DNA from: Candidatus Eisenbacteria bacterium
GTDB taxonomy: Bacteria; Eisenbacteria; RBG-16-71-46; JAFGJU01
Assembly (NCBI GenBank): GCA_026388185.1
Contig: JAPLKG010000005.1
Location: 61,001-125,000 of the forward strand
Reading direction: 5' to 3'
DNA: 64,000 bases
Shown piece by piece: positions 1 to 30,526 of this stretch (position 1 is its first letter; the number at the start of each line of letters is the position of its first letter). The position numbers and the translations under genes were made by a program. Below the pieces are notes generated by a model that was not told the DNA's origin, made no database searches, and saw only the letters and a list, made by a program, of their open reading frames with translations.

Positions 1-1037
1 AGGAGCTGGGGTGCTTCGCAGAAGGCGACACGTGGATCACGATTGTCGAGCCGGTGCAGCAGGTAGGCGCATCGCATTTGAGCCGGCATATCGGACGCCA
101 TGCCGTCGGTGCCCAAACCGACCAGAATTCCCTTGGCCATCATCGCGAGCACCTTGGCTACTCCCACCGCGTTGTTCATGTTTGATTCCGGATTGTGTAC
201 CACCATCGTCCCGGTATCTTTGACAAGATCCATCTCCCGCTCGTCGATGTTGACGCAGTGAATGTAGAGCGAGTTCTTCCCGCAGATGCCGCGAGTTACC
301 AGGCGCTCGACGGTGCGAATCCCGTATTTCGTCAAGGAATCCGTATGGTCTTCGAGGCCTTCAGCCACATGAATATGGTAACCGACGCCGTAGCGTTCAG
401 CCACGGCGCGACACCCGGCGAGCGTATCGTCCGATACGGTCATGGAGGCATGGAGGCCCATCATGCCGGTAAGGAATGGCGATTTTTCGGCAGCCATCCG
501 CTTGAGAAACCGTTCGTTTTCCGCCAGGCCACCGGCCGGTACGTTGCGATCCGACACTTCATAGCAGAGGGAGGCGCGAATGCCGCTCTCCAGGACAGCT
601 TTTGCGATCAAGTCGAGGCTGCCGTCACGGCATGAGGGGCTGGCATGGTGATCGATGATGGCGGTGGTGCCGTTGCGGATGCATTCGATGAGTGGAATGA
701 GTGCGCTCAGATATACGTCATCTTCGAGGAGTGCCCTGTCCAGCTTCCACCAGAGGCGCTCCAAGATCTCGCCGAAGCAGCGCGCGGGCTCACCAGGCGG
801 CGCAAATCCCCGCGCCATGGTGCTGTAAAGATGGTGGTGAGCGCAGATGAAGCCGGGCAGGACCACCTTGTTACGAGCATCTACCTTGACTTCGCAGGCA
901 TAGCGTTCTCTGAGATCTTTCGCCTGCCCTACATCCGCAATCAAACCATCCTTGACATATACTGCACCATCGTTGATGACTTGGTTGTTCCGCCCCAGAG
1001 TTATAACGATTCCTCCAGCAATCAAGTAGTCGCTCAT
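1..1037 (-). CDS. ssnA: SsnA-like amidohydrolase (partial, 3' end off window)
   Basis: Metal-dependent hydrolase of the TRZ/ATZ/SsnA group, which deaminates or hydrolyses N-heterocycles or ureido compounds; the exact substrate cannot be read from sequence. About 345 codons are present without a stop, and the C-terminus lies beyond position 1 (E. coli SsnA has about 440 residues). The start is ATG at 1037, preceded by AGGAGG at about 1045-1050. Visible motifs are the metal-binding HHH in PGFICAHHHLY near residue 70, the later IHVAEG histidine, the HCVNID histidine, HNPESNMNNAVG, and LGTDGMASD with the metal Asp. It lies 160 bp downstream of, and on the same strand as, a dihydropyrimidine-dehydrogenase-like gene. 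In E. coli ssnA neighbours ygfK and xdhD, which fits the rest of this window. A guanine/8-oxoguanine-type deaminase is the main alternative. Confidence 0.8.
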   Translation of the reverse strand, partial: MSDYLIAGGIVITLGRNNQVINDGAVYVKDGLIADVGQAKDLRERYACEVKVDARNKVVLPGFICAHHHLYSTMARGFAPPGEPARCFGEILERLWWKLDRALLEDDVYLSALIPLIECIRNGTTAIIDHHASPSCRDGSLDLIAKAVLESGIRASLCYEVSDRNVPAGGLAENERFLKRMAAEKSPFLTGMMGLHASMTVSDDTLAGCRAVAERYGVGYHIHVAEGLEDHTDSLTKYGIRTVERLVTRGICGKNSLYIHCVNIDEREMDLVKDTGTMVVHNPESNMNNAVGVAKVLAMMAKGILVGLGTDGMASDMPAQMRCAYLLHRLDNRDPRVAFCEAPQL

Positions 1038-1199
1038 GCGTGTCCTCCTCATCACGATATTACCGCTTCGCCAACATGCCACGACGACAGATTCCGGCAT
1101 CCCGGTCTTAAGATCATGGCGATCAAATCAAGTATGAGAACCTTCGAGTCTCGACCTGCCCGGCGCCGGGAACGATCGAAACGCCCCTATTCAGCGGAA

Positions 1200-3758
1200 T
1201 CAAGCTTCGCGAAGCGCCTGCGTCTCTTCCGGAGTTCGATCCCGCATGCTCAATGCCAGTGCGAAGCAGAGGAAATTGCACATACTACAGCCGATGCATC
1301 TTTCCGGATCGGTCACGGGATAGCCGTCATCGCCGTAGCTGATCGCCAAATAGGGACAGTGCTTACAATTGCCGCATTGCAGGCACACCTCGCGATCCAC
1401 CTGGGAAATCCGTTTCACCGAGGAAAGCGCCATGAAGTCCGTGACGGGTTCCGGCAAGGCGATGCCGATGAGTTGCCGCACGGAACGCAGGCCGCGTTCG
1501 AACATGAGATGGCTGAGTCCCGAATTCAACTCATCGATGATGCGGTAGCCGCTCTTGGTTACCAGCGAGCAGAATTGGACGGTCTTGCAGCCAAGTGCGA
1601 GGAAATCGGCAGCGTGTTTGTAGTTGACCGGCCCACCGTTGCCTGAGATCTCAACGCCCAGCGGCGCTGCTTTTGCCAGCGAGAGGTAGCTGATATTCAA
1701 GACGCCTTCTCCCCCCATGCCCACGATCACGCCTTCTTCCCATTCTTTCTTTTTTCCGGGCCGGAACACCAGGGTCGGAAATGTATTGGCCAGGGTAATT
1801 CCTGCTTTCTTGCCGTGGTGGCGGTCGAAAACCTGCTTGATGGCGGAAACGATGGGGGCGATGGAGGTGACTGCACCGGTCAGTTTGAAGAGCTTGGGGA
1901 TCGAACCGTCACCGGCCGCCAGCACCCAATCGATGATTTTGGCAGACAGCTCGGCGTTCTGAGACACAATATCTCCCTGGGTGCCGTCGCCGCCTTGCGG
2001 GCAGGAGAGGCTGTACTCGATGGCCATCGCACCTGCATTCTCCAGCTTCCGAGTATTGCTCTGCCAACCGCGCTTGTCGCTCTCATCGTTGCCGGTCACG
2101 GGACCGCCGGTCGATGCCGCGGTTAGGCGGTCGGGATATAGTTTGATCAGCTGGTCGATCTCGCGGCTCACTCGATCCAGTGGATGACCGGAGACATTAT
2201 CGCAATTGGCGAAGGTTGCATCGCCGAAAGCAAACATGTATTCCGCCGGAATATGGATGGGCACGTTGTCGAAGGAGGTCTTCATGATGCCGCCGGGCCA
2301 TCCTGCTTCGTATGCTTTCTTCATCTGATCGAATCCGTCGGTCGTCGGTGCTGCCGAGAGCAAGAAGGGTGAAGCGATCGTTCGCCCGAAGAAGTCGGTC
2401 TCGAGCGGCACCGGCCTGAAGTTGTAGCCAGGGATCTGGATGTAGCTCTTGACGAATCCGTTAGTATTTCGCTCGAAATGAGGAATCGGCGTTCTCCGGA
2501 CGTAAGCATCCACTTGTTCAGCGACGTTCTTGCCGGCAGCCGAAGCTTCCACCACCGTGGTCGGGCCTTCCACGCAATCACCTGCATAAAATACCGCCGG
2601 ATGCTGCACCCGAGGCATCGCACAGCGCGCCCCGATGGCAATGATAACCTTTTGGATATCACGCCGGATCGCTTCGCTGCCAGGAATCGGCGTCACTGCA
2701 CCGGGCCGGAATTTCACGCCCGCTTGCAGCTTTACCTTCACCGTCGAGATACCGCTGACAGTGCCATGTTCAGAGAGGATCTCGCTTACCCGAATCCTGC
2801 CGTTCACATCGATCCCGCTCTTGGTCAGCTCGCCCATCTCTCGGCTGGTGAGCGGCATTTCACTGAGGTTCTCAAGCGCGAACAGCTCGACCCTGCCGGC
2901 ACCCAGCGTCAATGCGGTCATCGCACAGTCGAAGGCCGTGGCGCCGCCGCCGATCACCGCCACGTTGCCACTCACTTCATATATTTCGGGCCTCTTGAGA
3001 AACGGAATCCCCATGATCGCCTTATCCTCATTTGGGATACCTAGGGGGATCGGCGACCACAATCCCACCGTGACGATCGCCACATCAAACCCGGCACCCA
3101 GAAGTGCCAGCGGATCGGTGATCTCCTTGTTCAGCTCGACCCGAATATCGCCTAATCCGAGGCTCCAGTCGAAATCGGTCTTCAAAACCTCTTTGTCAAG
3201 GCGGAAGTCGGGGATGAGATTGCACATGCCGCCTGGGGTGGAATCCCTCTCGAAGATGGTCACGGCATAGCCCTTGCGCCCCAGCATCGAGGCGGCAGCC
3301 AAACCTGCCGGACCTGCGCCAATCACGGCAACCCTCTTGCCATTGGGATTCACTGCCTCCATCACCGGCATGACCCCCAATCGTTTAGCCTTTTCGATGA
3401 GCGTGGCCTGCACCATCGGGATATTTACCGCGCCGTCCAGCTTCTTGTGCACGCAGGCCGCCATGCAATGCTTGTCCGGACACACCTGCCCGCAGATGCC
3501 GCCCAACGGATTCTTCCCCATGATCAAGGCAGCCGCGTGCCTGATGTCTGACGGCGATCCAACCTGAGAAGCAAGGATGAAGTCCGCCGGTGAGCAATCG
3601 CACGGACAGGCGCCCATGCATGGCTTATCCTCGCAATACTCGCATTTCTCCAGCTCGGCTCGTAACTGAGCCTCTGTCATAAATAAATTGACTTCGTAAA
3701 TGGAGTCCCCGCGATCGCTGGGCAACCTCGTCCGTCTCCGGATGACATCGCTCGCCAT
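1200..3758 (-). CDS. Dihydropyrimidine dehydrogenase-like FAD/FMN/Fe-S oxidoreductase
   Basis: About 852 residues with the domain order of dihydropyrimidine dehydrogenase (a PreT-PreA fusion). An N-terminal Fe-S domain has Cys from residue 39 (CEYCEDKPCMGACPCDC). A GltD-like FAD domain has IGAGPAG near 148-154, and an NAD(P)H fold has IGGGATAFDCA near 270. An FMN TIM barrel covers about 470-790, and two C-terminal [4Fe-4S] motifs follow (CLQCGNCKHC, CIGCSMC). E. coli YgfK has related parts in the opposite order, so DPD is the better template. By eye the loop holding the DPD catalytic Cys (LACGQDPEL in the human enzyme) aligns with DIVSQNAEL, so that Cys is missing; LSCP and ANTF are kept. It probably reduces or oxidises a purine- or pyrimidine-derived ring other than uracil. 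ATG 3758 follows AAAGGAG with 11 nt spacing; ATG 3791 is the alternative. Confidence 0.8.
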   Translation of the reverse strand: MASDVIRRRTRLPSDRGDSIYEVNLFMTEAQLRAELEKCEYCEDKPCMGACPCDCSPADFILASQVGSPSDIRHAAALIMGKNPLGGICGQVCPDKHCMAACVHKKLDGAVNIPMVQATLIEKAKRLGVMPVMEAVNPNGKRVAVIGAGPAGLAAASMLGRKGYAVTIFERDSTPGGMCNLIPDFRLDKEVLKTDFDWSLGLGDIRVELNKEITDPLALLGAGFDVAIVTVGLWSPIPLGIPNEDKAIMGIPFLKRPEIYEVSGNVAVIGGGATAFDCAMTALTLGAGRVELFALENLSEMPLTSREMGELTKSGIDVNGRIRVSEILSEHGTVSGISTVKVKLQAGVKFRPGAVTPIPGSEAIRRDIQKVIIAIGARCAMPRVQHPAVFYAGDCVEGPTTVVEASAAGKNVAEQVDAYVRRTPIPHFERNTNGFVKSYIQIPGYNFRPVPLETDFFGRTIASPFLLSAAPTTDGFDQMKKAYEAGWPGGIMKTSFDNVPIHIPAEYMFAFGDATFANCDNVSGHPLDRVSREIDQLIKLYPDRLTAASTGGPVTGNDESDKRGWQSNTRKLENAGAMAIEYSLSCPQGGDGTQGDIVSQNAELSAKIIDWVLAAGDGSIPKLFKLTGAVTSIAPIVSAIKQVFDRHHGKKAGITLANTFPTLVFRPGKKKEWEEGVIVGMGGEGVLNISYLSLAKAAPLGVEISGNGGPVNYKHAADFLALGCKTVQFCSLVTKSGYRIIDELNSGLSHLMFERGLRSVRQLIGIALPEPVTDFMALSSVKRISQVDREVCLQCGNCKHCPYLAISYGDDGYPVTDPERCIGCSMCNFLCFALALSMRDRTPEETQALREA

Positions 3759-4112
3759 GATGTGCTCTTCTCCTTTACTGACGTAGTCCATGATGATCTC
3801 AATGAGCTATCGACATTATCATCGGGTCGGAGATCCTGCACAGGCTGTTGTTTCTGAACCTTAAAGGATTCCGGACGATACTTCAACCAGAAGGTGTGAG
3901 TGAATCCGACGAGCGGCAGAGTTGGTTCTTGGATTTTGCCGTTGGAAAATTGGGGGAACTCCTTCGATACCCAAACATCTTGACACGGAATCGAATTTCC
4001 TATAGGGTCAGGACGTTCTATCACTAGCCGTGGGGCAAAGAGGAGCGCCGTCGATTGGCGCCGTCCCTCTCGCTTCCCGGTAATATTCTATCTCTATCCA
4101 GGAGGATGCGAC
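3759..4112. other. Intergenic region without a recognised gene
   Basis: About 350 bp separate the divergent DPD-like gene and the small envelope-protein gene. The open leftward frame here (to about 4024) has no start signal I trust and no recognisable family. The only supported element is a promoter-like pair at 3980-4008. Confidence 0.5.
3980..4008 (+). promoter_or_regulatory. Sigma-70-type promoter for the 4113 gene
   Basis: TTGACA at 3980-3985 is a perfect -35. TAGGGT at 4003-4008 follows after 17 bp; an alternative -10, TATAGG, sits at 15 bp. It lies about 105 bp upstream of the ATG at 4113. Confidence 0.45.
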
Positions 4113-4754
4113 ATGAGGATCTCTCGAATCGTTCTAATCGTTCTTGTTGCAGGTCTAGGCCTGTGCTTTGCGCTACCGGTCGCAGCTCAGTACATCGGTG
4201 TTCTGCAGTCCGCCGAGACGAACGATCGCGGCACCTTCAAGCTCATGGTTGCCCCGATCATGGTATTCGGTAAGAACGGAGCAGACGACGAGTTCGGAGT
4301 CGCGGCTCGTGGTGGGTATGGATTCACCGACCGCTTCGACGCCGAAGCCAAGCTGGGCTTCTTCGAGAATAGTACGTACGTCGGCGCGGATGGCGAGTGG
4401 TGGATTCTGAGCGGCAAGGAAATGGATACCGGCCTGGATTTCTCGTTGACGGGAGGCGTCCACTGGATGTTCGCGGGGGAAGGGAATTTCGACACCATGG
4501 GGCTCGACGTCACGCCGCTGTTGAGCGGGCACGTGAACGAGAAGATAGAGCTGTGCGGTGCGCTGGATGTCTCGTTCGAGTCGATCAATGATGCCCCGCC
4601 GGGGGTCGACGACACGTTCACGAGATTGCACCTCGTGCCCGGAATCGAGTACCACCTGTCCGACGTAGTCGACCTGGTCGGCGAGATTGGTATCGGGCTC
4701 AACGACAACTCGTTTAGCTATGCGGGCGCCGGCATCGCTTTCTACCTCCGCTGA
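4113..4754 (+). CDS. Small outer-membrane beta-barrel-like protein
   Basis: A 213-residue protein with a clear Sec signal peptide: MRIS, a hydrophobic core of about 15 residues, then ALPVAAQ with a likely cut after VAA or AQ. The mature part alternates polar and hydrophobic residues in short Gly- and aromatic-rich strands and ends in AGAGIAFYLR, a C-terminal aromatic strand typical of outer-membrane barrels. Strong RBS AGGAGG precedes the ATG. I do not recognise a named family; small porin-like or OmpW/OprF-like barrels have this shape. It is followed by a small DUF3185 gene on the same strand. Function is unknown. Confidence 0.65.
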   Translation: MRISRIVLIVLVAGLGLCFALPVAAQYIGVLQSAETNDRGTFKLMVAPIMVFGKNGADDEFGVAARGGYGFTDRFDAEAKLGFFENSTYVGADGEWWILSGKEMDTGLDFSLTGGVHWMFAGEGNFDTMGLDVTPLLSGHVNEKIELCGALDVSFESINDAPPGVDDTFTRLHLVPGIEYHLSDVVDLVGEIGIGLNDNSFSYAGAGIAFYLR

Positions 4755-4876
4755 TAACGAGTGGTGTGGTGGTCAGATTCACCTTCTGTTCGTCGTCGCC
4801 GTTGCTGTCTCGTGTCTCCGGCTGACTCGGGCCGGGGCACGTGCAGGCGGCGCGTGGATAGGAAAGGATAAGTGAA

Positions 4877-5089
4877 ATGAAATCCATTGGAATCTTGCTC
4901 GTGGTCCTTGGAGTCCTCGCGCTGGTCTACGGCGGAATCAACTACAACAAGAACCGGACGGTCCTCCAGATGGGTTCGATGAGCGTTACCGCCACGGAGC
5001 GCAAGAGCATTCCAGTCCCGGCAGTCGTCGGTGTGGTTGTGCTGATCGGCGGTGTCGCACTTCTGGTGACCGGCAAGCGCCGTTCCTAG
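4877..5089 (+). CDS. DUF3185 family small membrane protein
   Basis: A 70-residue protein with two hydrophobic helices (about residues 3-20 and 46-64) and a conserved-looking centre with YGGINY and a Thr/Ala-rich stretch. It ends in a positively charged tail, GKRRS. This pattern matches the DUF3185 family of two-helix inner-membrane proteins found in many diderm bacteria. No function is known. It lies 120 bp after the small barrel gene and faces the BamA-like gene. Confidence 0.7.
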   Translation: MKSIGILLVVLGVLALVYGGINYNKNRTVLQMGSMSVTATERKSIPVPAVVGVVVLIGGVALLVTGKRRS

Positions 5090-5183
5090 TCTCTGTGATC
5101 CTCGACGGGACATCGCAGCGGGCGATCATGAAGAGCCCGTGCGGGTCTCAGAGGAATGTCGATCTTCTCGCCCCGGCCGCGCC

Positions 5184-6941
5184 TTAGTATTCCACGATCT
5201 CCGGCCTGATTCCCATGAACTCGATCGACCGGAAGCGCTTCTCTCCGAACGCGGTGTAGGAGAACGCGGCATGATCGATCGGGAGTCTCGGATACCAGGC
5301 GAAGCGCAGTTGCACCGGCCCGATCCCGAAGCTATCCTTGTGTAACCGGACCCCCAGCCCCAGCCCCGAGTAGCAGTTCTGCGCGAGGATACTCCTGCGC
5401 CCGGAGCCGATGAAATCCAGGTCCGCGAAGGTGAAGAACGCGAAGGTGACTCCTTTCGCCCTCCAAGGGGTGAATGCGACGGATTCAAGGTTGAGCTGGA
5501 GGCGCCTGGTTCCGGTCACAGTGCTGTTGTAGACCACGCCACGAATGCTCTCGTCGCCGTTGAAGTTAATGCTGTCGTCCGCGTAGCGGTGGATCCCGGT
5601 GGTGTATCCCGCTTTGACGAACTGACGGAACCGGAACCCTCCGACCTGCAGAAGATTGCTGAAGTAAAGGGTCTGCAGTCGGATTACTCCCTGCTCGATC
5701 TTTCTGCCTTTGGGATATCCACCCATGCGCACCTCAACGACCCCGTATCCCAGTCGGCCGATCTTCTCTCCCGCCGCCAACGTGGCGGATGCATAATGAC
5801 TCTGGGTGAACTCCTCGTTGGCCAATCCGTACGTGACGCGGGCGAGAAAACCGTAGGGGATATCCTCCGTCCGGCCAAAGTTGTACAGTAGATTCGCGCG
5901 GTAATACGAGCTCTGGATGTAGGTGAGGCTTCCCAGAACGTGGTCCATGTCGTGATACTGATAGAAGGTGAATGGCGTGACCGGCGGGCGTTTGGTGAAC
6001 TTTAGATGCCGGACCCGGCCCGAAAGGAACAGGGTGGGGCGGCGCCCGGTCGCTTTCTGAATGCGCCATTGATGGACCGGTCTTCCCGCCCAGAGATCGA
6101 TCAGATCGGAAGTGTTATCGGCTGCGGAAAGTAGTGAATCCGGTACTGCGATCGAGGTCCGCCTCAGGTCCAACCCTCCGGCGTATCGGAGGACGGGAGA
6201 GATAAGCTCGCGGGAGAGTACGAGGCCCGCCGTTTCCTTGCCGGGCATTTTCACGTACTCCAGTTTTCCGGTGATGAACGAGCCGTGGATGTTTTGCATG
6301 GAATAGTTCGTGTCGAATCCCAACCGGGGGGTGGCGTTGGGGTCCAGAGTGGCCGCCACGGAAACCTGGTGCCCCAGCCCGAGGAGGTTTTTCTCGGCCA
6401 GGCTGACCTTCAGGCGGTTTCCCTCTTTCAGGCTTCCTGAGAGCTGGAGGGTCCATGTTTCCTTCACGATGACCCGCACGTCGGCCGAATCGCGGCTTTC
6501 GGGAATCCGCACCACGACGATTCGGGCATCTCCGATAAACGCCAGGTTCCGGAGGATGCGCTCGCTGTCTGCCAGCCGGAAGGGATCGATGGCGTCCCCC
6601 TCCTTGAAGAGGAGGGTCTGGCGAATGGTGGTCTCGCGGGTCTGGAAGTTCAGGTGGTTGAGGGTCCTCTCCAGCCGCGATTTCGTCGATCGGGTAGTAT
6701 CGTCGACCGACGGGCCGAATACATCAAGGTTCGTGACCAGGATCCTCCGGACGCGCTTTCCCGCATAACGGAGGAATTTCCGATCGCTCCGCTCCAGCGC
6801 AGGTCCCTGCTCGCTCTGCTCAACCTCGACGGAATCCGTTTCCGCGCGCACCGCGGGCACGCTCGGTTCCGCGAAAACGCACTCACAGGAAGCTCCAAGT
6901 ATCAGTAACAACACGAGAAGGATCACTGAGCGTCGGTACAT
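5184..6941 (-). CDS. BamA/TamA-like outer-membrane surface-antigen protein
   Basis: A 585-residue protein with a signal peptide (MYRRSVILLVLLLILGASCECVFAEP); the Cys in GASCEC could be a lipobox-like site. About 140 residues follow that resemble one or two POTRA domains (VRRILVTNLDVFG; then ILRNLAFIGDARIVV, typical of POTRA strand-helix-strand). A beta-barrel of roughly 400 residues ends the protein (GHQVSVAATLDPN, LGLGVRLHKDSFGIGPVQLRFAWYP). BamA/TamA proteins insert or export outer-membrane proteins, but with few POTRAs this is more like a TamA/patatin-associated D15 paralogue than the essential BamA. Start ATG 6941 follows GAGGCGGG; a longer frame reaches 6998. The gene stands alone, convergent with DUF3185. 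Confidence 0.7.
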   Translation of the reverse strand: MYRRSVILLVLLLILGASCECVFAEPSVPAVRAETDSVEVEQSEQGPALERSDRKFLRYAGKRVRRILVTNLDVFGPSVDDTTRSTKSRLERTLNHLNFQTRETTIRQTLLFKEGDAIDPFRLADSERILRNLAFIGDARIVVVRIPESRDSADVRVIVKETWTLQLSGSLKEGNRLKVSLAEKNLLGLGHQVSVAATLDPNATPRLGFDTNYSMQNIHGSFITGKLEYVKMPGKETAGLVLSRELISPVLRYAGGLDLRRTSIAVPDSLLSAADNTSDLIDLWAGRPVHQWRIQKATGRRPTLFLSGRVRHLKFTKRPPVTPFTFYQYHDMDHVLGSLTYIQSSYYRANLLYNFGRTEDIPYGFLARVTYGLANEEFTQSHYASATLAAGEKIGRLGYGVVEVRMGGYPKGRKIEQGVIRLQTLYFSNLLQVGGFRFRQFVKAGYTTGIHRYADDSINFNGDESIRGVVYNSTVTGTRRLQLNLESVAFTPWRAKGVTFAFFTFADLDFIGSGRRSILAQNCYSGLGLGVRLHKDSFGIGPVQLRFAWYPRLPIDHAAFSYTAFGEKRFRSIEFMGIRPEIVEY

Positions 6942-7017
6942 TCCCGCCTCGCATCCCGTGTCCGTTTGTCCGCCCTGGGACCGATGTGGTGAAGCCAACC
7001 GTCAGGTCACGGACGGC

Positions 7018-7143
7018 TTAGGTTCCGATAATCTCATTCAAGCCATCAACGGCTTGACTCAACTCGTCTGGGGAAACAACCCCGATCTTCTTGCCAACCC
7101 TCTCAACGGAGAGCGTTCGAATCTGGCTTGTCTTTACCCATGA
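7018..7143 (-). pseudogene. C-terminal remnant of a MazF/PemK-type toxin
   Basis: In the frame ending at 7018 the peptide VKTSQIRTLSVERVGKKIG followed by VVSPDELSQAVDGLNEIIGT is the typical last 35-40 residues of MazF/PemK endoribonucleases. The N-terminal two thirds with the catalytic barrel are missing. The fragment begins inside the 3' end of the antitoxin gene in another frame, so a deletion has joined the antitoxin body to the toxin tail. It cannot make an active toxin. Confidence 0.75.
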
Positions 7144-7348
7144 ACGCTTCGGCCATTGCCTTCTCAAAAGCGGGATCAAGCTTTGCACATTCCCGCGCAA
7201 GCCGGTTGCGATCAATCCGCTCCAGCTTCTCACGCACTGCCTCCTGAATCGCACGGCTACGGCTGCGAAAGACACGGTTCTTGACAAGTTGATCTATGCG
7301 TTGAACCGAGGCCACGTCCAATGTGATCGCTACTTTCGCCTTTCCCAT
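7103..7348 (-). CDS. Ribbon-helix-helix antitoxin, fused tail
   Basis: An 81-residue protein with an N-terminal ribbon-helix-helix DNA-binding fold (KAKVAITLDVASVQRIDQLV, then SRSRAIQEAVREKLERI) as in CopG/MazE-type antitoxins. These bind and neutralise a MazF-type RNase and repress their own operon. Start ATG 7348 sits 6 nt after AGGAGG (plus strand 7354-7359); an upstream GTG overlaps the RBS and is unlikely. The last 11-12 residues (MGKDKPDSNALR) are not antitoxin-like. They come from out-of-frame toxin DNA after the deletion described for 7018-7143, so the toxin-contacting C-terminus is probably lost while DNA binding may remain. Confidence 0.75.
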   Translation of the reverse strand: MGKAKVAITLDVASVQRIDQLVKNRVFRSRSRAIQEAVREKLERIDRNRLARECAKLDPAFEKAMAEAFMGKDKPDSNALR

Positions 7349-7358
7349 GGGCACCTCC

Positions 7359-7381
7359 TGGTATTACCACATATCATACCA
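7359..7381. promoter_or_regulatory. Likely antitoxin operator (inverted repeat)
   Basis: TGGTAT (7359-7364) and ATACCA (7376-7381) form an inverted repeat with an 11-bp centre just upstream of the antitoxin ATG and touching its RBS. Ribbon-helix-helix antitoxins normally bind such sites to autoregulate. Confidence 0.45.
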
Positions 7382-7622
7382 TGGAGTCTGTCAAGTGGAG
7401 AGCTTGAATGAACCTAAAGGCTCCGGCAAGGGGTTCGGCGCGTCAGCAACTAACACCCTCTATGTGTACTCTGTCAGAACGTTCCATTTCTATGCATAAT
7501 CTCATATGAGGAGTTTGCTACGCCTTGGAAGCCAACAACATCACTTCTTCAAGAACCGTCCATACGCTCCACCCCCAAGAGTCGGGGCGCAATCCTCCCC
7601 GTATTGGGTTTCTCCAGCGGCA

Positions 7623-8384
7623 TCAAGTCTCCCTAGTGCGTAACATGCGAGCTCTTTCGTTTCCGATCAATGCGAGTAGATTGCGCTTCATCTGCAGGCA
7701 TACGTCGTCCGTCGTCGTTCCCCACAAGAGTGCGACAGCGTCTGCGATACTGATCGCTTCCCAAGGCATCAGAGCGACAGTGCGATTCTTCGCGAACGGT
7801 CCGTCTGTCTCTGGAAGTATTCTGTCCATGGGTAGTTCCCGAAGTATTGCACAGCCTGTCGCCCCGCGTAGCATAGCAGGCCCAACACTAAACCAACATC
7901 CGAGAGCTACTGCACGGCGGGCCTGTTCAACAGTGCCTGAAAACCAGTGCAATACCGGCGTACTCTCTCGACAATACTGTTCAACGAGATCAAGGACGCG
8001 GCTTGCGGCGTTTCTCGAATGGATGCTTAGGATCTTCCCTCCGACCCGTTCGCACTTATTCAGTACCTCCCTGAGAATCGACTCTTGCAATGGCATGCTC
8101 TCCTGATGCCTGCGAGATCCATCAAGACCAATCTCACCCACAAACCCAGCTTTAGGAATGCAGGACATCAGCAATGCGCGTTCACCTGCCTTCTTGCCGA
8201 CGACCTCTGGATGCATCCCCACAGCAACCTTGATGTTGTCATAGCCGGCAAACACGCGCGAAGTAGCCTGCCACGCCCGAGGACTGGTCGTGACAACAAG
8301 AGTGAAGGCGTTGCAGGCCGCAACTCTGGGTAAAATCTTCAGCGCGTCAGGGTAGAGGTCGAGGTGGCAGTGAAAGTCAATCAT
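7623..8384 (-). CDS. qatD: QatD, TatD-family DNase of a Qat anti-phage system
   Basis: A 253-residue TatD-type metal-dependent hydrolase. Motifs run in order: HCHLD (residues 5-9), VGMHPE, VGEIGLDGS near 100, LSIHSRNA near 138, HWFSG near 165 and ETDGP near 210. These are the metal and catalytic positions of TatD DNases. The start overlaps the qatC stop by 4 nt (ATGA), so the two are translationally coupled. TatD alone is a housekeeping enzyme, but as last gene after a KAP NTPase, an unknown protein and a QueC-like protein it matches QatD of the QatABCD system. The role in that system is likely nucleolytic; the mechanism is not settled. Confidence 0.85.
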   Translation of the reverse strand: MIDFHCHLDLYPDALKILPRVAACNAFTLVVTTSPRAWQATSRVFAGYDNIKVAVGMHPEVVGKKAGERALLMSCIPKAGFVGEIGLDGSRRHQESMPLQESILREVLNKCERVGGKILSIHSRNAASRVLDLVEQYCRESTPVLHWFSGTVEQARRAVALGCWFSVGPAMLRGATGCAILRELPMDRILPETDGPFAKNRTVALMPWEAISIADAVALLWGTTTDDVCLQMKRNLLALIGNERARMLRTRET

Positions 8385-10515: not shown

Positions 10516-10516
10516 A

Positions 10517-12920: not shown

Positions 12921-13052
12921 TGTTGTAATCTCCTTTCCGCGAACGAACACAAGAATCAGCCCCCAGTGTAACGAGTCGGCTGGATTGCCTTGTTGGGGAA
13001 TGGGTTAGGTCGTTCTCTCTACTGTCTGTCTAGGACTTACACATATGTTTCC

Positions 13053-18176: not shown

Positions 18177-18203
18177 CTGAATTCCTTTTGAGTGCAATGG
18201 TGC

Positions 18204-18290
18204 GTTAGTTCGATAGTTTGGTAGTTTGATAGTGCGATAGCTGAACTCACCAACGAACGCACTATTTTAGGATTACACTATCGTACTAAC
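18204..18290. repeat. Nested inverted repeat between carbamoyltransferase and carbamate kinase genes
   Basis: An outer pair GTTAGTTCGATAGT (18204-18217) and ACTATCGTACTAAC (18277-18290) matches 13 of 14 bp when inverted. An inner pair ATAGTGCG (18229-18236) and CGCACTAT (18258-18265) matches 8 of 8. The outer right arm covers the stop codon of the upstream gene. In leftward mRNA it would fold into a long two-part hairpin between the two cistrons. No U-run follows, so it may set mRNA stability or differential expression rather than end transcription. It also contains short GATAGTTTG-like direct repeats. Confidence 0.65.
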
Positions 18291-23752: not shown

Positions 23753-24285
23753 AACTGTCATTTAGGTTGAACGGGACAGACACCGTGCTCGACGTCTCAG
23801 GCTACGAGCGTCTGATAGATCTCTTGCGTGAGAGACTGGGTCTCTTCGGCACGAAGGAGGGTTGTGGAAAGGGTGAGTGCGGTGCGTGCACGGTCCTTTT
23901 GGACGGGGCTCCGGTGTGCTCTTGCCTCTTGCTCTCGTCGCAGCTCGCCGGCAGAGAAGTCACGACAATAGAAGGACTGGCGAAGAGAGACAGGCTACAT
24001 CCGGTCCAGGAGGCGTTCACCGAGACAGGCGCGGTGCAATGCGGTTTCTGCACGCCGGGAATGGTGCTTTCAGCAGTTGCACTTCTCAACGAAAATCCCG
24101 ATCCCTCGAGACAAGAAATCAAGAGGGCTCTTTCAGGCAATCTCTGCCGCTGCACCGGATACAAGAAGATATTCGAGGCCGTGGAACTGGCCGCAAAGAA
24201 CATGAAAGGATCGAGCAAGGGGATGAAGCCGGGGAGGAGAGTCGCTCGTAGTAAACGAGGGAGAGCACGGCAGAGCCGCGCGTAA
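23749..24285 (+). CDS. Xanthine-dehydrogenase-family [2Fe-2S] small subunit (set 1)
   Basis: A 178-residue iron-sulfur subunit. The plant-type cluster motif CGKGECGACTVLLDGAPVCSC is near residue 40 and the second cluster CGFCTPGM ... CRCTGYKKI is at about 99-145. It carries electrons from the molybdenum site to FAD. The last about 25 residues (KGMKPGRRVARSKRGRARQS) are a strongly basic tail that extends past the usual end of the family. It overlaps the upstream large subunit by 4 nt. Confidence 0.9.
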   Translation: MKLSFRLNGTDTVLDVSGYERLIDLLRERLGLFGTKEGCGKGECGACTVLLDGAPVCSCLLLSSQLAGREVTTIEGLAKRDRLHPVQEAFTETGAVQCGFCTPGMVLSAVALLNENPDPSRQEIKRALSGNLCRCTGYKKIFEAVELAAKNMKGSSKGMKPGRRVARSKRGRARQSRA

Positions 24286-24313
24286 TTGGTAGCGAAAAGT
24301 TCTGAGGAATGGT

Positions 24314-25177
24314 GTGAGCATGACAGACGCTGCGATCATCAGTGTTTCGACGTTGAATCAGGCTCTCAAGGCAATGGCACAGAAGAACGTCGTCGCTCTG
24401 GCAGGTGGAACCGACGTGCTTGTCAGACTGCACGACGTCGTCGATCGTCCATGGCCCAGGCTGCTTGTGTTGGAAGGGGTCAAGCCGCTCCACAGAATGA
24501 CGGTGAAAGATGACCGCATCTTGCTGGGGCCTCTTCTCACCTTCGCCGACATTGCGAAATCGGCCGGCCTGAGAAAGTTCGCGCCACAACTCGTTGAGGC
24601 GGCTTCGCTGGCGGGGTCGGTCCTCATAAGAAATCGCGGCACGATCGGTGGGAATGTCGCACACGCTTCTCCGGCCGGCGATCTAATCCCTCCTCTGTTC
24701 GTGCTTTCGGCGAGACTTGAATTGTCGTCCGTCAACGGCAAACGCTACGTATCAATCGAAGACTTCGTCAAGGGGCCGGGATTGACCGCTCTCAAGGCTA
24801 ACGAGCTGATCACGTCCATAATCCTTGAGAAATGCGGAAGCCACGGGTTCTATCTTCGGCTTGCGGCCAGAAGGGCCTTGGCCATCAGCAAGGTCTCGGT
24901 GGCTGCGAATCTCTCCGTGCGACGGGAGAAAGTGGACAGAATAAAGGTTGCCCTCGGTGCGGTGGCTCCAACTGTGGTGAGGGCATTGCGGACCGAAGAT
25001 TACTTGCTGGGCAGGGAGTTGACGGACGGCACCATCTCAGTCGCGTGTTCCATTGCCAAGAACGAAGCAACGCCCATAACGGACATACGTTCCGACGCAG
25101 AGTACAGGCGAGGAATGGTGGCCGTTCTATTGCGAAGGGGTCTCGCGCGAATCGCACACACAGGGACCCGGGCTTGA
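24314..25177 (+). CDS. Xanthine-dehydrogenase-family FAD subunit (set 1)
   Basis: A 287-residue FAD-binding subunit (XdhB/CoxM type). LAGGTDVLVRL near residue 35 and IRNRGTIGGNVAHASPAGDLIPPL near 105 are the two FAD-binding loops. It passes electrons from [2Fe-2S] centres to NAD or another acceptor. Start is GTG 24314 or ATG 24320; GAGG lies just upstream. No [4Fe-4S] insertion as in 4-hydroxybenzoyl-CoA reductase is visible. Order here is large, small, FAD. Confidence 0.87.
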   Translation: MSMTDAAIISVSTLNQALKAMAQKNVVALAGGTDVLVRLHDVVDRPWPRLLVLEGVKPLHRMTVKDDRILLGPLLTFADIAKSAGLRKFAPQLVEAASLAGSVLIRNRGTIGGNVAHASPAGDLIPPLFVLSARLELSSVNGKRYVSIEDFVKGPGLTALKANELITSIILEKCGSHGFYLRLAARRALAISKVSVAANLSVRREKVDRIKVALGAVAPTVVRALRTEDYLLGRELTDGTISVACSIAKNEATPITDIRSDAEYRRGMVAVLLRRGLARIAHTGTRA

Positions 25178-25214
25178 TGGCGTGGCTGATCGGCTGGACG
25201 ACAGAAGGACTCTC

Positions 25215-27716
25215 ATGGCTGATTGCGTGAACGACAAGAACTCATTTGACGTAATTGGCTCGGCCGTCCCCGGCGTGGACGCTCTCGACAAGGTGACGGG
25301 CCGCGCAAAGTACGGCGCCGACTACAATCAGAAGGGTCAGCTGTACGGAGCCGCCAGACACTCGGATTATCCCCACGCCGAGATCGTATCAATAGACACA
25401 ACCCGTGCGAGAGAGTTGCCCGGCGTCCGCGCCGTATTGACTCACGTCGATATCCCAGGCCAGAACTGCTTCGGCGGTGTGGTTCCGCACCAAGTAGTCT
25501 TGTGTTCCGATAAGGTCAGATATTTCGGTGACGTCGTGGCGATAGTCGCTGCGGATACGGAAGAGGTCGCGTCGACGGCCGTAGGACTTGTCGAAATCAG
25601 ATACAATCCTCTTCCCGTAGTGACCGACCCCGTAGAAGCTTTGCGCGAGGGCTCTCCGCCGGTTCATCCGAACGGAAATCTCTGCGTTCATCACAAAGTA
25701 AGAAAGGGTGACGTGGACAAAGCCTTTTCTAAATGTGATGTTGTTCTGAGGCGGGAATATTCCACTCAAAAGGTTGAGCACGCGTACATGGAACCCGAGG
25801 CCGTTCTGGCTGAACTCGGGGAGAACGGCGGCGTTACCATTACTGGTTCGGTTCAGAATCTCTATTCGATCAGGCGAGCGCTGGCCAGGGTCCTTGCCCT
25901 GCCGCTGAACCGCGTACGGATACGGCAAGCGACGCTCGGCGGTTCCTTCGGCGGCAAAGATGAGGTGATGAGCGCACTGGCTTGCCGGGCCGCTCTGCTC
26001 GCCCTGGCTACCGGACGACCCTTGAAGATGGTGAACACTCGCGAGAACTCCATGAGGGAGTCGTACAAACGTCATCCTTACAAGATGAGATACAAGGTGG
26101 GGGCCAGCAAGCAAGGTTTGTTGCAGGCGATGCAGATAGAGATCTTTGCCGACGCGGGCGCCTACGCCGCGATGTCTCCGTTCGTCACCTGGCGTTCGGT
26201 GGTACAGGCCACGGGGCCGTATGTCGTCCCCAACGTGAAGACGGATGTTTACGCCGCATACACGAACAATTGTTACACCAGCGCGATGAGAGGATTCGGC
26301 TCGCCGCAGATTTGCTTCGGCGCAGAGTCTCTGATGGATGAATTGGCTCTCGAGCTCGGCATGAGTCCATTGGAAATTCGCTTGAAGAACGTGCTCAAGG
26401 ACGGTTGTGAAACGGCCACCGGGCAGAAGTTGGATCACAAGGTTAGCGTGGAGCAGGCCTTACTGAACGTTGCCAGGAAGGGAAACTTCAAAGAAAAATG
26501 GAACGCCTGTCTGGAACAGAACAAGGGGGGCGCAGTGAGCAAAGGAAGCGCTGAGGGTACGACGGGCGAAAGTGACCACGACTCCGTGACCACGGCGGGT
26601 TCTGAACCTCGGGCAGGGTCTTGCATAAAGAAGGGGATAGGCTTGTCGTGCAGTTACCGGGGTGTGTCGTTGGGTGCGGAAGGAGTGGACGCCGCGGGTG
26701 TTGTCGTCTCGCTTCAGACGGACGGTACCGTGATCGTATCGTCGGGTCTTGTTGACATGGGTCAAGGAGCTTCAACCACAATCTCGCTTCTTGTGGCCGA
26801 AGAGCTGGGCGTCACGATTGACAGGGTCGTTTTCCTCAACGCAGACACGTCGCGTCTTCCGGATTCGGGCCCCACTGTTGCCTCGAGGACAAGTTTCATG
26901 GCGGGAAACGCCGCAGGGAGGGGCTGCCACGAGCTTCTCGAGAGGCTTAAGCCCATAGCGGCTGAGACGCTGAAGTGTTCACCGGGCTCGGTTGTGTTTG
27001 AAGACAATTTCGTTTATGCCGGCGGAGGGGAATCAAGTACCGGTGGCGGTGAACGCAAGGGGGAAGGCATGTCGCTGGCTGCGCTGGCCACCCTTTGCTT
27101 CCAGAAGGGGATTTCCCTTTACGCTCACGGCTGGTACAAAGCTCCGTCAACGTCGTGGGACGAGGAGAACGGCCAAGGTCTTGCCTATTACACGTTCGTA
27201 TACGGCGCCAATCTGGCGGAGGTGGAAGTGGATGCCGTGACGGGCAAGGTCGCCGTAACCAATGTCGTGAGTTCGCACGACGTGGGCCGTGTGATAAGTC
27301 TCCACGGCGCGAGGGGACAAGTGTGCGGAGGCGTGGCCATGGGACTCGGCTACGCTCTGCTCGAAGAGTACGCGGAGGAAGCCGGGGTGCCCCAGCTTGA
27401 GAATCTTGACGAATATCTTCTTCCGACCGCGGGCGATACGCCGGACGTGGATGTCGTTTTCATCGAGAACCCTGACAAGCTCGGCCCTCACGGCGCAAAA
27501 TCGTTGGGAGAACCCGCCTGCGAACTGGCGGCGCCGGCGATTGTAAATGCAGTCGCTAACGCAACAGGGAGAAGAATCAGAGCGTTGCCCCTCACGCTGG
27601 AGAGAGTGCTTCTCGGAAGGAAGCTCTCAAGGAAAGAAGAACGCGGCTCTGTGAAGGCGAAGGAAACTCTGACAGGGGAATCTGATCCAGCCAACGCACG
27701 GGACAGGGACCAATGA
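25215..27716 (+). CDS. Xanthine-dehydrogenase-family Mo-binding large subunit (set 2)
   Basis: An 833-residue paralogue of the set-1 large subunit. VTGRAKYGADYN opens the hammerhead domain; GGSFGGKDE near 239 and MRGFGSPQ near 360 bind Moco; VDMGQGASTTISLLVAEELG and GAKSLGEPACELAAPAIVNAV follow, with the active-site Glu in GEP. The hydrophilic insert at about residues 437-465 (GGAVSKGSAEGTTGESDHDS) and a second near 605-620 fall at the same places as in set 1. ATG 25215 is preferred (AAGGA 5 nt upstream) over GTG 25182. It overlaps the FAD subunit gene by 4 nt. Differences in the active-site loop (AEQP versus GEPA) suggest the two enzymes have different substrates. Confidence 0.88.
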   Translation: MADCVNDKNSFDVIGSAVPGVDALDKVTGRAKYGADYNQKGQLYGAARHSDYPHAEIVSIDTTRARELPGVRAVLTHVDIPGQNCFGGVVPHQVVLCSDKVRYFGDVVAIVAADTEEVASTAVGLVEIRYNPLPVVTDPVEALREGSPPVHPNGNLCVHHKVRKGDVDKAFSKCDVVLRREYSTQKVEHAYMEPEAVLAELGENGGVTITGSVQNLYSIRRALARVLALPLNRVRIRQATLGGSFGGKDEVMSALACRAALLALATGRPLKMVNTRENSMRESYKRHPYKMRYKVGASKQGLLQAMQIEIFADAGAYAAMSPFVTWRSVVQATGPYVVPNVKTDVYAAYTNNCYTSAMRGFGSPQICFGAESLMDELALELGMSPLEIRLKNVLKDGCETATGQKLDHKVSVEQALLNVARKGNFKEKWNACLEQNKGGAVSKGSAEGTTGESDHDSVTTAGSEPRAGSCIKKGIGLSCSYRGVSLGAEGVDAAGVVVSLQTDGTVIVSSGLVDMGQGASTTISLLVAEELGVTIDRVVFLNADTSRLPDSGPTVASRTSFMAGNAAGRGCHELLERLKPIAAETLKCSPGSVVFEDNFVYAGGGESSTGGGERKGEGMSLAALATLCFQKGISLYAHGWYKAPSTSWDEENGQGLAYYTFVYGANLAEVEVDAVTGKVAVTNVVSSHDVGRVISLHGARGQVCGGVAMGLGYALLEEYAEEAGVPQLENLDEYLLPTAGDTPDVDVVFIENPDKLGPHGAKSLGEPACELAAPAIVNAVANATGRRIRALPLTLERVLLGRKLSRKEERGSVKAKETLTGESDPANARDRDQ

Positions 27717-28657
27717 TCAACGTAGTCTCACATTACTATCCTGCATCTCTGGAGGAAGCTCTCGACTTGATGGCGTCGAGAGAGCTCACACCTATTGCAG
27801 GCGGGACAGATCTTGTCCCTCAGATGCGCGACGGCGAGCCGCGAGCGCTGATCGACGTGGCTCGCCTCGGTCTCAACTACGTAAGGGTCGCCGAGGGGGC
27901 GCTCGAGATCGGTCCCTGCGTTACCCATTCGAACCTGTGTTGTGATCGCGACGTTGTACGGTTTCTGCCGCTCCTTTCCAGTGCCGCCGGCGTGATCGGC
28001 GCTGTCCAGATAAGAAACAGGGGAACTATCGGCGGCAACGTAGTAAACGCCTCACCCTCGGCCGACACAGTGCCCGCGCTGTTGAATTACGACGCTGAAG
28101 TCGTGCTTGTTTCCAAGGCCGGCAGGAGACGCATGAAACTGGAAGAGTTCGTCAAACGGCCTTACGTTACGGACAGGAAACCCGGAGAGCTCTTGACTTC
28201 TATTGTGTGCAAGACGTCGGGGGCGACGGCCGTTGTGGCCGCCCGCGCGGCGGGTGAGGTCCCGAGTGGTGCCCCGGGTGGCGCCCCGAGCGCGGCGCTA
28301 GGATTAGAAGTCGGCACTTGTTTCCTCAAGTTGGGCCGGAGAAATGCGATGAACATTTCAAGGATGAGCCTGGCAGTGCTGCTCACAGTGGGAGCAGACC
28401 GTAGGATCGGGTCTGCTCGTGTCTCGGCGGGAGCAGTTTTTCCCGTTGCCAAGCGAATGCTCGAAGTGGAGCGATTGCTGGCCGGACAGATTGTGTCGAC
28501 GAAACTCTTCCAAGAGGCCGGTCTTCTCGCCACCGAGCTACTCGTGAAGGAAACGGGAATACGCTGGTCGACACCTTACAAGATGCCGGTCCTCAAGGGT
28601 CTGCTTGAAAGAGCATTACACCGGGCGGCAGAAAACAGCGGGGTGACCGCGGAATGA
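27713..28657 (+). CDS. Xanthine-dehydrogenase-family FAD subunit (set 2)
   Basis: A 314-residue FAD subunit with IAGGTDLVPQMR near residue 27 and IRNRGTIGGNVVNASPSADTVPAL near 101. A Gly/Ala/Pro-rich insert near residues 178-200 (AGEVPSGAPGGAPSAALG) interrupts the domain before the conserved LKLGRRNAMNISRMS. Overlaps its neighbours on both sides by 4 nt. Order of set 2 is large, FAD, small, unlike set 1. Confidence 0.87.
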   Translation: MINVVSHYYPASLEEALDLMASRELTPIAGGTDLVPQMRDGEPRALIDVARLGLNYVRVAEGALEIGPCVTHSNLCCDRDVVRFLPLLSSAAGVIGAVQIRNRGTIGGNVVNASPSADTVPALLNYDAEVVLVSKAGRRRMKLEEFVKRPYVTDRKPGELLTSIVCKTSGATAVVAARAAGEVPSGAPGGAPSAALGLEVGTCFLKLGRRNAMNISRMSLAVLLTVGADRRIGSARVSAGAVFPVAKRMLEVERLLAGQIVSTKLFQEAGLLATELLVKETGIRWSTPYKMPVLKGLLERALHRAAENSGVTAE

Positions 28658-29175
28658 GCACGGTCTGCTTGAGCTTCCGGTTGAACGGAGTTGAATTCAA
28701 GAAGGTCGTACCCTCTGGATGGACCTTGCTGCGCTATTTGCGTGACGACCTCGGCTACTACGGTACCAAGTGCGGCTGCGAGATCGGAGAGTGCGGCGTT
28801 TGCACGGTGCTCTACGACGGTGAGGCAATGAACTCGTGCCTCATCCTTGCGTCGCAAATCGACGGTGCGGACATCTGGACAATCGAAGGCGTGGCTCCGA
28901 GTGGCGGTTCACAATTGCATCCGATACAGCGAGCCTTTCTCGATTGCGGCGCCGTTCATTGCGGTTTTTGTTCCCCCGGAATGGTGATGTCCGTGGTGGG
29001 GTTGCTCCTGAAGAATCGGAATCCGAGCGAAAGTGAGATCAAGGGCGCCCTGGCGGGCAATCTGTGCCGCTGTACCGGATACGTTCAGATAATCGAGGCC
29101 GTGAAGACGGCGGCCTCAGTTGTCACGGATAGGGATTTGGAGAAGTTCGTCTCCGGGAAGAAGCGGGAGACGTAG
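28654..29175 (+). CDS. Xanthine-dehydrogenase-family [2Fe-2S] small subunit (set 2)
   Basis: A 173-residue iron-sulfur subunit with CGCEIGECGVCTVLYDGEA near 42 and the second cluster HCGFCSPGM ... CRCTGYVQI at about 108-150. It overlaps the FAD subunit by 4 nt and completes the second enzyme. Clearly paralogous to the set-1 small subunit but without its basic tail. Confidence 0.9.
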   Translation: MSTVCLSFRLNGVEFKKVVPSGWTLLRYLRDDLGYYGTKCGCEIGECGVCTVLYDGEAMNSCLILASQIDGADIWTIEGVAPSGGSQLHPIQRAFLDCGAVHCGFCSPGMVMSVVGLLLKNRNPSESEIKGALAGNLCRCTGYVQIIEAVKTAASVVTDRDLEKFVSGKKRET

Positions 29176-29236
29176 CGTAGGAGGATCCTCAATCAAGAAA
29201 TCTAGGCCGGATGCCGCCGTCAAGAAGGAGAGGGGT

Positions 29237-30526
29237 GTGAAGAGCCAGAGCTATGACTCAATGAAGAGCAGTTTCGACTTGAACAGGCGCGACTTCCTCA
29301 GGATCGGAGGCGCGTTTGGCATCGGGCTTCTGTTGGGCAACACGTCGGCGTGGGCGCAGGAGAATCAGAAGGTCGCTCCGCCCGCGAAAATCAAGACGAA
29401 CATTGACGACGCTCTGAAGACTTTCACGACCGGGCGTTCTTTGCCGGGTCCCTTTCCCGGGAGGGTCGTAGAAGTTTGTGACCAGAAGGCGATGGCGAAT
29501 GACAGGCCGGTTCCGGAAGTTGTGCGCACGATGTTCGAGAAGGGTGTGCGGCAGTTGACCGGCAAGAACCTCAAGAAGAGTTTCGGGATGTTCTTTGAAA
29601 AGGGAGACGTTGTCGGAATAAAGGTGAACCCGGTCGGCGCGGGTCTCATCAATACGCGGCTCGAAGTCGTGGACGCCACCATTGAATGGCTGACCAAGAA
29701 CGGCATCAAGCCGGATAATATTGTGATCTGGGATCGCTACGATTTCATGCTGAAGGAAGCCGGTTTCACTTCGGAACGATATCCCGGAGTCGGGATCGTC
29801 GGGCTTCAGACGATGGGAGAGACTGAAGAAGAGAGCGGTCAGAGTGAAGGTGGAAGCAAGGCAGAAGGTGAAGGGCAAGGCCGGACTCAGGGCGAATCAA
29901 CGAGCGAAGGCAAGAATGAAGGCGCCAGCAGCTGGCTGGACAAGAATGGTAATCACGTTAGTGCAGGGAATTTCGACATGGATGTGTACTACTGGGCCGA
30001 CGTCGAGGGTCCAAAGGACAAGGCTTATCTCAACCAGCACGTGTTCAACGGAAAGTACTCTTACTTCGGCAAGCTTCTCACACAGAGACTGACGAAGATT
30101 GTAAATATCCCCGTGTTCAAGAACAGCGGCAACGGGATCTCAATGGCGACGAAGAACCTCGGGTACGGCTCGATCTGCAACACCAATCGACTGCACAATC
30201 CGCTCTTCTTCGACGTGTGCACGGAGGTCCTGGCGTTTCCCGTAATAAGAACGAAGCTTGTGCTCAATATCACCGACGGCCTCAGGGCACAGTATGACGG
30301 CGGTCCCATGCCTGTCGCAGAATTTGCATATCCGATGAGCACGCTCTTCTTTGCGACCGATCCGTTTGCACTCGACATGACCTGTCATCGTCTCATGGTC
30401 GAAAAACGGAAGAGCATGCAGGTCAAAGTGAACGAGCACCCGATCTTTACGGACTATTTCCGTTACGCAGAGCGCCTCGGGCTCGGCATTGCCGATCCGG
30501 AGAAGATTGAGCACGTTCGGATTTGA
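29237..30526 (+). CDS. Tat-exported DUF362 domain protein
   Basis: About 429 residues. A twin-arginine signal is clear: NRRDFLRIGGAFGIGLLLG followed by AWAQE. The body matches DUF362 proteins (KGDVVGIKVNPVGAGLINTRLEVVDATIEWL; PDNIVIWDRYD; VNIPVFKNSGNGISMATKNLGYGSI). A long low-complexity stretch near 192-228 (ETEEESGQSEGGSKAEGEGQ and following) interrupts it. Start GTG 29237 has AAGGAGAGG upstream; ATG 29261 is possible. It follows the hydroxylase genes on the same strand, 60 bp on. No [4Fe-4S] motif of longer DUF362 proteins was found. Role unknown; exported and perhaps linked to the extracytoplasmic part of the pathway. Confidence 0.75.
   Translation: MKSQSYDSMKSSFDLNRRDFLRIGGAFGIGLLLGNTSAWAQENQKVAPPAKIKTNIDDALKTFTTGRSLPGPFPGRVVEVCDQKAMANDRPVPEVVRTMFEKGVRQLTGKNLKKSFGMFFEKGDVVGIKVNPVGAGLINTRLEVVDATIEWLTKNGIKPDNIVIWDRYDFMLKEAGFTSERYPGVGIVGLQTMGETEEESGQSEGGSKAEGEGQGRTQGESTSEGKNEGASSWLDKNGNHVSAGNFDMDVYYWADVEGPKDKAYLNQHVFNGKYSYFGKLLTQRLTKIVNIPVFKNSGNGISMATKNLGYGSICNTNRLHNPLFFDVCTEVLAFPVIRTKLVLNITDGLRAQYDGGPMPVAEFAYPMSTLFFATDPFALDMTCHRLMVEKRKSMQVKVNEHPIFTDYFRYAERLGLGIADPEKIEHVRI

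Follow-up and report, generated by a model that had tools for sequence, protein, structure and literature searches.

We analysed a 64,000-nucleotide stretch of a Candidatus Eisenbacteria genome (contig JAPLKG010000005.1, G000:C5:61001–125000; genome of 2.62 Mb, 97.9% complete), hereafter called the window, whose first 30 kb encode an SsnA aminohydrolase, a reductase of dihydropyrimidine dehydrogenase (DPD) architecture, two pyridoxal phosphate (PLP) enzymes (PLP1 and PLP2), a carbamate kinase, one ornithine carbamoyltransferase-like (OTC-like) and one aspartate carbamoyltransferase-like (ATC-like) enzyme, and two molybdenum (Mo) hydroxylases. There is a strong case for assigning this locus to the reductive uric-acid pathway, of which it is a real and conserved variant. 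We further consider it moderately probable that the variant, taken as a whole, proceeds by double phosphorolysis and uses the PLP pair in place of YgeX. The argument is built on gene content, conservation of the operon, co-occurrence across genomes, an altered motif in the ATC-like enzyme and the loss of an arginine from PLP2, all read from the sequences; from these we infer the substrates of all proteins of the locus, how the steps beyond ureidomethyl-hydantoin are ordered, and the Mo enzyme that would act on urate. Family calls were made by comparing scores with the cut-offs of curated NCBIfam, TIGR and PRK models and with Pfam cut-offs.

An operon related to the reductive urate pathway

In the reductive urate pathway of Li et al. 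2025 (PMC12507026), also set out in a commentary (PMC12990295), XdhD converts urate to 2,8-dioxopurine, which YgfK or the PydA-like UacX dearomatises; SsnA acts next, HyuA yields 2,3-diureidopropionate, YgeW phosphorolyses one ureido group, YgeY hydrolyses the other and YgeX forms pyruvate. The E. coli cluster comprises xdhD-ygfM, ygfK, ssnA, hyuA, ygeW, yqeA, ygeY and ygeX, and C. difficile has uacX and uacY (PMC12507026). An initial annotation, made from the letters of the window alone, had linked its genes to this anaerobic route, and the link holds: SsnA, the pathway marker of Li et al. (PMC12507026), is complete on the contig, exceeds both curated NCBIfam SsnA models (534.4 bits against a cut-off of 444, and 507.1 against 455.5) and is 35% identical to E. 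coli SsnA. All genes named in that annotation are real and lie where it had placed them, and all are full-length in the window save SsnA, which is clipped by its end.

In a sister genome of the same family (G002), SsnA, the DPD-type reductase, PLP1, PLP2, carbamate kinase and the OTC-like and ATC-like enzymes follow one another without interruption on one contig of 2.69 Mb. Reductase and PLP1 are adjacent there, whereas in the window they are separated by an insertion of about 10.6 kb. Because G002 carries the same genes contiguously and without the insertion, the window reads as one conserved operon that has been broken up by a foreign defence island, and the possibility raised in the initial annotation, that its parts come from different genomes, does not hold. 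The same annotation had treated positions 1–30,526 as a single cluster and overlooked the insertion (about 3.8–14.4 kb), in which a Qat anti-phage operon has the complete QatA–D set in order; direct repeats were sought at both ends of the insertion, and none were found.

Like the E. coli and C. difficile clusters, the locus groups SsnA, a YgeW-like enzyme, a carbamate kinase (sharing 49% identity with E. coli YqeA), Mo hydroxylases and a protein of MocA type, with HyuA encoded elsewhere in the genome. It differs in having a fused DPD-type reductase rather than YgfK or UacX (UacX was not directly compared), an additional ATC-like carbamoyltransferase without YgeY, PLP1 and PLP2 instead of YgeX, and Mo hydroxylases of three subunits. 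Since YgfK, YgeY and YgeX were each looked for by their criteria and did not emerge, the locus should be treated as a functional analogue of the E. coli uricolytic cluster and not be counted within that type. Such family differences would be missed by the neighbourhood scan of Li et al., because it labelled every PF00291 protein YgeX and every PF00185 protein YgeW (PMC12507026), which lumps them.

The reductase, with a probable start at 3680, had been recognised as DPD-like, in agreement with its domain order and conserved active-site cysteine: it aligns with pig DPD across the domains (171 bits) and keeps Cys671 within SCPQG, and it scores below the YgfK model (160 of 835) and the PreA model (183 of 335). 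While it resembles dihydropyrimidine dehydrogenases (pig DPD, PydA) in these respects, it is divergent and adjoins SsnA, not only in the window but also in G002 and in candidate division LCP-89, whose reductase is 54% identical. We propose it as the enzyme that reduces yanthine (2,8-dioxopurine).

The earlier remark that neither HyuA nor YgeY was seen stands for YgeY, which was not found in the genome, but not for HyuA, which lies at C3, away from the cluster (TIGR02033, 572 bits; cut-off 393). YgeY (TIGR03526) and YgeX (TIGR01747) gave no match in G000 or G002, and the contig to the left of SsnA, where inspection had been advised, carries neither hyuA nor ygeY. Two candidates were rejected: an M20 hydrolase at C14 is an M20 protein of another type than YgeY, and an amidohydrolase at C20 is a 5'-deoxyadenosine-deaminase-type protein and not HyuA. 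The genome also encodes an adenine deaminase.

The carbamoyltransferases and the PLP pair

Genuine PyrB and ArgF are encoded elsewhere in the genome, both exceeding their model cut-offs by wide margins, and the two carbamoyltransferases of the window are therefore extra to them and are not these biosynthetic enzymes. The OTC-like enzyme shares 36% identity with E. coli YgeW along its full length (347 columns) and scores 199 against the YgeW cut-off of 453. The ATC-like protein only just exceeds the aspartate carbamoyltransferase (ATCase) model TIGR00670 (237.7 against 236.95). In all 35 complete homologues checked, STRTR and HPTQ are retained, EPxVQ takes the place of the ATCase TRxQ, and HSLPR that of HPLPR. 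The enzyme thus lacks the RxQ and HPLP expected of an ATCase and bears the marks of the pseudo-ATCases described by Barba et al. 2013 (PMC4016543), with STRT and HPTQ kept, RxQ lost and H265–P268 altered. Its motif 4 reads PVV, which matches none of the three published subgroups (AIA/AIS/SIA, GX[SC] or VXP; PMC4016543, Table 1), and the ATC-like proteins form a single clade (support 100/100) on a long branch from PyrB. By these motifs the enzyme belongs to the pseudo-ATCases, in a subgroup that has not been published. It shares with known pseudo-ATCases, besides the motifs, a carbamate kinase neighbour and a place in purine clusters, and subgroup 2 was earlier reported adjoining a ygeW homologue, xdhABC and hyuA (PMC4016543); apart from PVV, the difference lies in its occurrence with SsnA, PLP1 and PLP2 in Chloroflexota and others.

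Co-occurrence was examined in 400 Chloroflexota genomes, using Fisher tests that ignore relatedness, and gaps in metagenome-assembled genomes (MAGs) may hide genes. Here the ATC-like protein was found in 29 genomes, PLP1 in 65, YgeY in 55 and full-length SsnA in 69. A search for genomes in which the families occur together had been suggested. In this set PLP1 is present in 29/29 ATC-like carriers compared with 36/371 other genomes (p=2e-26), and it is associated with both SsnA (p=7e-38) and YgeY (p=1e-25). Of the 65 genomes with PLP1, 59 have YgeY and/or the ATC-like protein, YgeY being found in 10/29 with the ATC-like protein versus 30/36 without it (p=9e-5). The operon order in Chloroflexota is purine-deaminase-type amidohydrolase, adenine deaminase, GntR, an optional YgeY, ATC, OTC, carbamate kinase, PnrA-type transporter, PLP2 and PLP1. 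In seven Chloroflexota loci, ATC-like urate operons also conserve a 677-residue protein with no Pfam match (L206:12965–14995), and a family-2 glycosyltransferase of no obvious role lies between PLP2 and PLP1 at L118:8899–9894, L085:5677–6699 and L218:5518–6465.

The ATC-like protein of the window nests among those of Chloroflexota, with modest tree support (81/92), and the PLP1 of the window shares 88% identity with its counterpart in a Chloroflexota MAG (L069:27–2535). Since the window genome, to judge from its BamA-like and porin-like proteins, is unlike Chloroflexota, lateral transfer of the operon is likely; SsnA is only 51% identical to its L069 counterpart, and this disparity with PLP1 suggests that the transfer was mosaic.

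When a PLP1 alignment was run against 84,980 species genomes, it retrieved at least 592 stretches, all with relatives, of which the best 80 were analysed. PLP1 neighbourhoods carry SsnA, Mo hydroxylases, HyuA, YgeW/OTC-like enzymes, YgeY and carbamate kinase. In the 36 PLP1 loci with at least two urate markers, PLP2 is present in 31 and YgeX in 2; these loci cover at least nine named phyla, and the combination of PLP1 and PLP2 at least eight, with candidate division LCP-89 counted. YgeX (TIGR01747) was found in 3 of 66 PLP1 genomes, with no match in the other 63. Moorella thermoacetica DSM 21394 and Acididesulfobacillus acetoxydans are examples of cultured organisms with PLP1 and PLP2. The two enzymes had been noted as unlike YgeX, which proves correct, and they recur in urate clusters of many phyla: although, like YgeX, they are fold-type II PLP enzymes in the same type of cluster, they belong to other families and show merely short local similarity to it (25–32%). 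In L083, L093 and L104 (Clostridium, Acididesulfobacillus), PLP1 stands alongside YgeX. A second PLP1 subgroup, with HKVLAAYAC around the PLP lysine, a distant PLP2 and a likewise distant SsnA-like protein, occurs in L051–L055 (e.g. L055:5414–6748) and is perhaps a further pathway variant.

The AlphaFold model of PLP1 (pLDDT 93.6) best matches solved structures of O-acetylserine sulfhydrylase (OASS), cystathionine beta-synthase (CBS) and beta-cyanoalanine synthase, with Z of 34–38 over about 290–326 residues. The model thus places PLP1 in the fold of beta-elimination and beta-replacement enzymes, an OASS/CBS fold that does not by itself point to one substrate. Enzymes of this group act on the C-beta atom of amino acids with three carbons. 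PLP2 exceeds the threonine synthase model TIGR00260 (216 against 167). At the phosphate site, however, the arginine found in four solved ThrC structures is a threonine in the window PLP2, and no arginine occupies this position in any of the 47 cluster PLP2 proteins for which the motif could be located; we take T. thermophilus Arg160 to be the arginine that lines the O-phosphohomoserine phosphate site of threonine synthase. Four fold-type II PLP proteins were found in the window genome, namely PLP1, PLP2, a cysteine synthase and a TrpB-like protein. The last, at C18, was considered as a genuine threonine synthase and rejected; because it is TrpB-like and no separate ThrC was found in the window genome, PLP2 could still be the sole ThrC candidate.

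Proposed route and competing explanations

In the route that we favour, one or both Mo hydroxylases would convert urate to yanthine, which the DPD-type reductase would dearomatise using NAD(P)H; SsnA would open the ring to give ureidomethyl-hydantoin, and HyuA, encoded elsewhere, would open the hydantoin to 2,3-diureidopropionate. The YgeW-like enzyme would then phosphorolyse the first ureido group, leaving the second to be phosphorolysed by the ATC-like pseudo-ATCase in place of, or in addition to, the YgeY hydrolase, and both carbamoyl phosphates would pass to the single carbamate kinase, giving 2 ATP instead of 1. PLP1 and PLP2, in YgeX's place, would carry out the terminal lyase step, converting the C3 diamino acid so formed into pyruvate and ammonia. 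That a diureido acid is phosphorolysed stepwise had already been put forward in the initial annotation; the idea gains a real intermediate, 2,3-diureidopropionate (PMC12507026), and a precedent in the pseudo-ATCase Rxyl_2847, a ureidoglycine carbamoyltransferase that phosphorolyses allantoate (2,2-diureidoacetate; PMC4016543), but replacement of YgeY is not universal.

Several observations weigh against this route, some of which are given below with the explanation that each favours. Nine or ten of the ATC-like carriers, almost all of them from the more divergent half, encode only a shorter SsnA-like amidohydrolase and lack any full-length match to SsnA above roughly 378 bits. PLP1 and YgeX occur together in three Bacillota loci, and because of this coexistence PLP1 may have a further role beyond replacing YgeX, for example in racemisation. 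Two successive phosphorolyses are thermodynamically costly. Some gene absences could also stem from MAG incompleteness.

The competing explanations are taken in order of decreasing probability. It is rather unlikely that the operon of carbamoyltransferase and PLP genes is an independent neighbour of the Mo-hydroxylase operon, with the two serving different pathways, such as hydroxylation of N-heterocycles, although no Mo hydroxylase lies near the operon within the stretches read in G002. Mo hydroxylase 1 belongs to the xanthine dehydrogenase (XDH) family, with 4-hydroxybenzoyl-CoA reductase and XDH as best solved matches, whereas Mo hydroxylase 2 is closest to nicotinate dehydrogenase, as such independence would allow, and next to 4-hydroxybenzoyl-CoA reductase; both are 27–28% identical to XdhD. 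Against independence, the two operons form a divergent pair in the window, 358 bp apart, and Mo hydroxylases are found no more than 10 kb from PLP1 in 14 of 36 loci with both flanks.

We also regard it as unlikely that the ATC-like enzyme duplicates the role of YgeY or handles another urate-derived ureido compound (a stereo- or regio-isomer, for instance), in which case the ATP yield would not be raised. YgeY directly adjoins the ATC-like gene in eight loci, being missing from that position in others, and the two occur together in ten of the 29 Chloroflexota carriers and in G063, so strict mutual exclusion was rejected and the two are not strict substitutes. Because a third of carriers also keep YgeY, the ATC-like enzyme can be an addition to it and not a replacement alone. 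Redundancy accords less well with the 19 carriers that have no YgeY and with the five to seven changes in YgeY presence along the ATC-like tree, consistent with several losses or gains.

The main rival, which we nonetheless hold to be improbable, keeps the urate pathway but has the ATC-like enzyme act on N-carbamoyl-beta-alanine (3-ureidopropionate) as part of reductive pyrimidine breakdown, to which the DPD-type reductase and HyuA would also belong. The DPD architecture of the reductase fits this assignment, as does the position of HyuA in the window genome, with a class-III aminotransferase on one side and an aldehyde dehydrogenase on the other, a context of the type expected for beta-alanine breakdown. 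Against it stand the presence of PLP1 in all 29 ATC-like Chloroflexota carriers but in only 36 of the other 371 genomes, the purine deaminases within ATC-like operons and the reductase adjoining SsnA in the window, G002 and candidate division LCP-89. Action on allantoate, as a ureidoglycine carbamoyltransferase of oxidative purine breakdown, is very improbable: the pseudo-ATCase motifs recall the sole assayed pseudo-ATCase, which performs that reaction, but the window enzyme has PVV and HSLP where the allantoate subgroup has AIA/AIS/SIA and HPLA, and ATC-like clusters contain SsnA, HyuA and Xdh. Duplication of biosynthetic PyrB and ArgF, which the narrow pass of TIGR00670 might evoke, can be dismissed in view of the separate, high-scoring PyrB and ArgF and the loss of the aspartate motif from every complete homologue.

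Window layout and implications

The features of the locus are collected in the table; the two complete three-subunit Mo hydroxylases that had been recognised at 21281–29175 are confirmed by their Pfam domains. The MocA-type protein scores 145 bits with a DVU_1551-type NTP transferase model and 134 with MocA, both under cut-off. To the left of SsnA, the contig encodes an arsenite-methyltransferase-like protein and a two-component system. Elsewhere in the window, tandem 2-hydroxyacyl-CoA dehydratase activase-type proteins (BcrAD_BadFG, DUF2229, HGD-D), one of them a 1441-residue fusion, occupy 33666–41395, and at 44112–46089 a deoxyhypusine-synthase-family protein adjoins an arginase/agmatinase-family protein, a pair that perhaps serves bacterial polyamine synthesis.

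Table. Features of the urate locus and of the insertion that divides it (window positions)
Feature	Position	Strand	Remarks
SsnA aminohydrolase	1–1100	-	C-terminal end beyond window; complete gene C5:60709–62100
DPD-architecture reductase	1200–3791	-	4Fe-4S/FAD/NAD(P)H half fused to PreA-like FMN half, C-terminal 4Fe-4S
Insertion	3800–14420		Splits operon; outside pathway
Porin-like open reading frame	4113–4754	+	Within insertion
BamA-like protein	5184–6998	-	Within insertion
Qat anti-phage operon QatD/C/B/A	7623–12385	-	QatB, QatC and QatD above curated cut-offs; QatA 423 of 600
Zinc-ribbon protein	13053–14120	-	Within insertion
PLP1	14421–15800	-	Predicted OASS/CBS-fold PLP enzyme, C-terminal extension
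PLP2	15817–17103	-	Threonine-synthase-like PLP enzyme
Carbamate kinase	17157–18197	-	PRK12352 424 (cut-off 266), TIGR00746 384 (358)
OTC/YgeW-like carbamoyltransferase	18286–19266	-	Motifs STRT/HPFQ/HPLP
ATC-like pseudo-ATCase	19285–20265	-	STRT and HPTQ retained, RxQ replaced by PVV
MocA-type molybdenum cofactor nucleotidyltransferase	20624–21259	+	Pfam NTP_transf_3 above cut-off
Mo hydroxylase 1	21281–25177	+	A 21281–23752, C 23749–24285, B 24314–25177; Pfam domains above cut-off
Mo hydroxylase 2	25182–29175	+	A 25182–27716, B 27713–28657, C 28654–29175; Pfam domains above cut-off
DUF362 protein	29120–30526		Membership in locus unproven

The reductive urate pathway was resolved only in 2025, from gut bacteria, and the present loci place the urate route, with different parts, in groundwater, sediment and other free-living lineages, which bears on the question of whether it evolved for life in the gut or is of more ancient origin (PMC12990295). 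It is possible, and we suggest it tentatively, that a mostly phosphorolytic urate fermentation operates outside the gut, in which a new diureidopropionate/ureidoalanine subgroup of pseudo-ATCases would yield two carbamoyl phosphates per urate and the PLP pair would be the usual lyase across many phyla. If the second carbamoyltransferase acts as proposed, the carbamoyl-phosphate ATP obtained from urate fermentation would be doubled, and three families annotated in these genomes as aspartate carbamoyltransferase, threonine synthase and cysteine synthase would be misnamed and in need of re-annotation.

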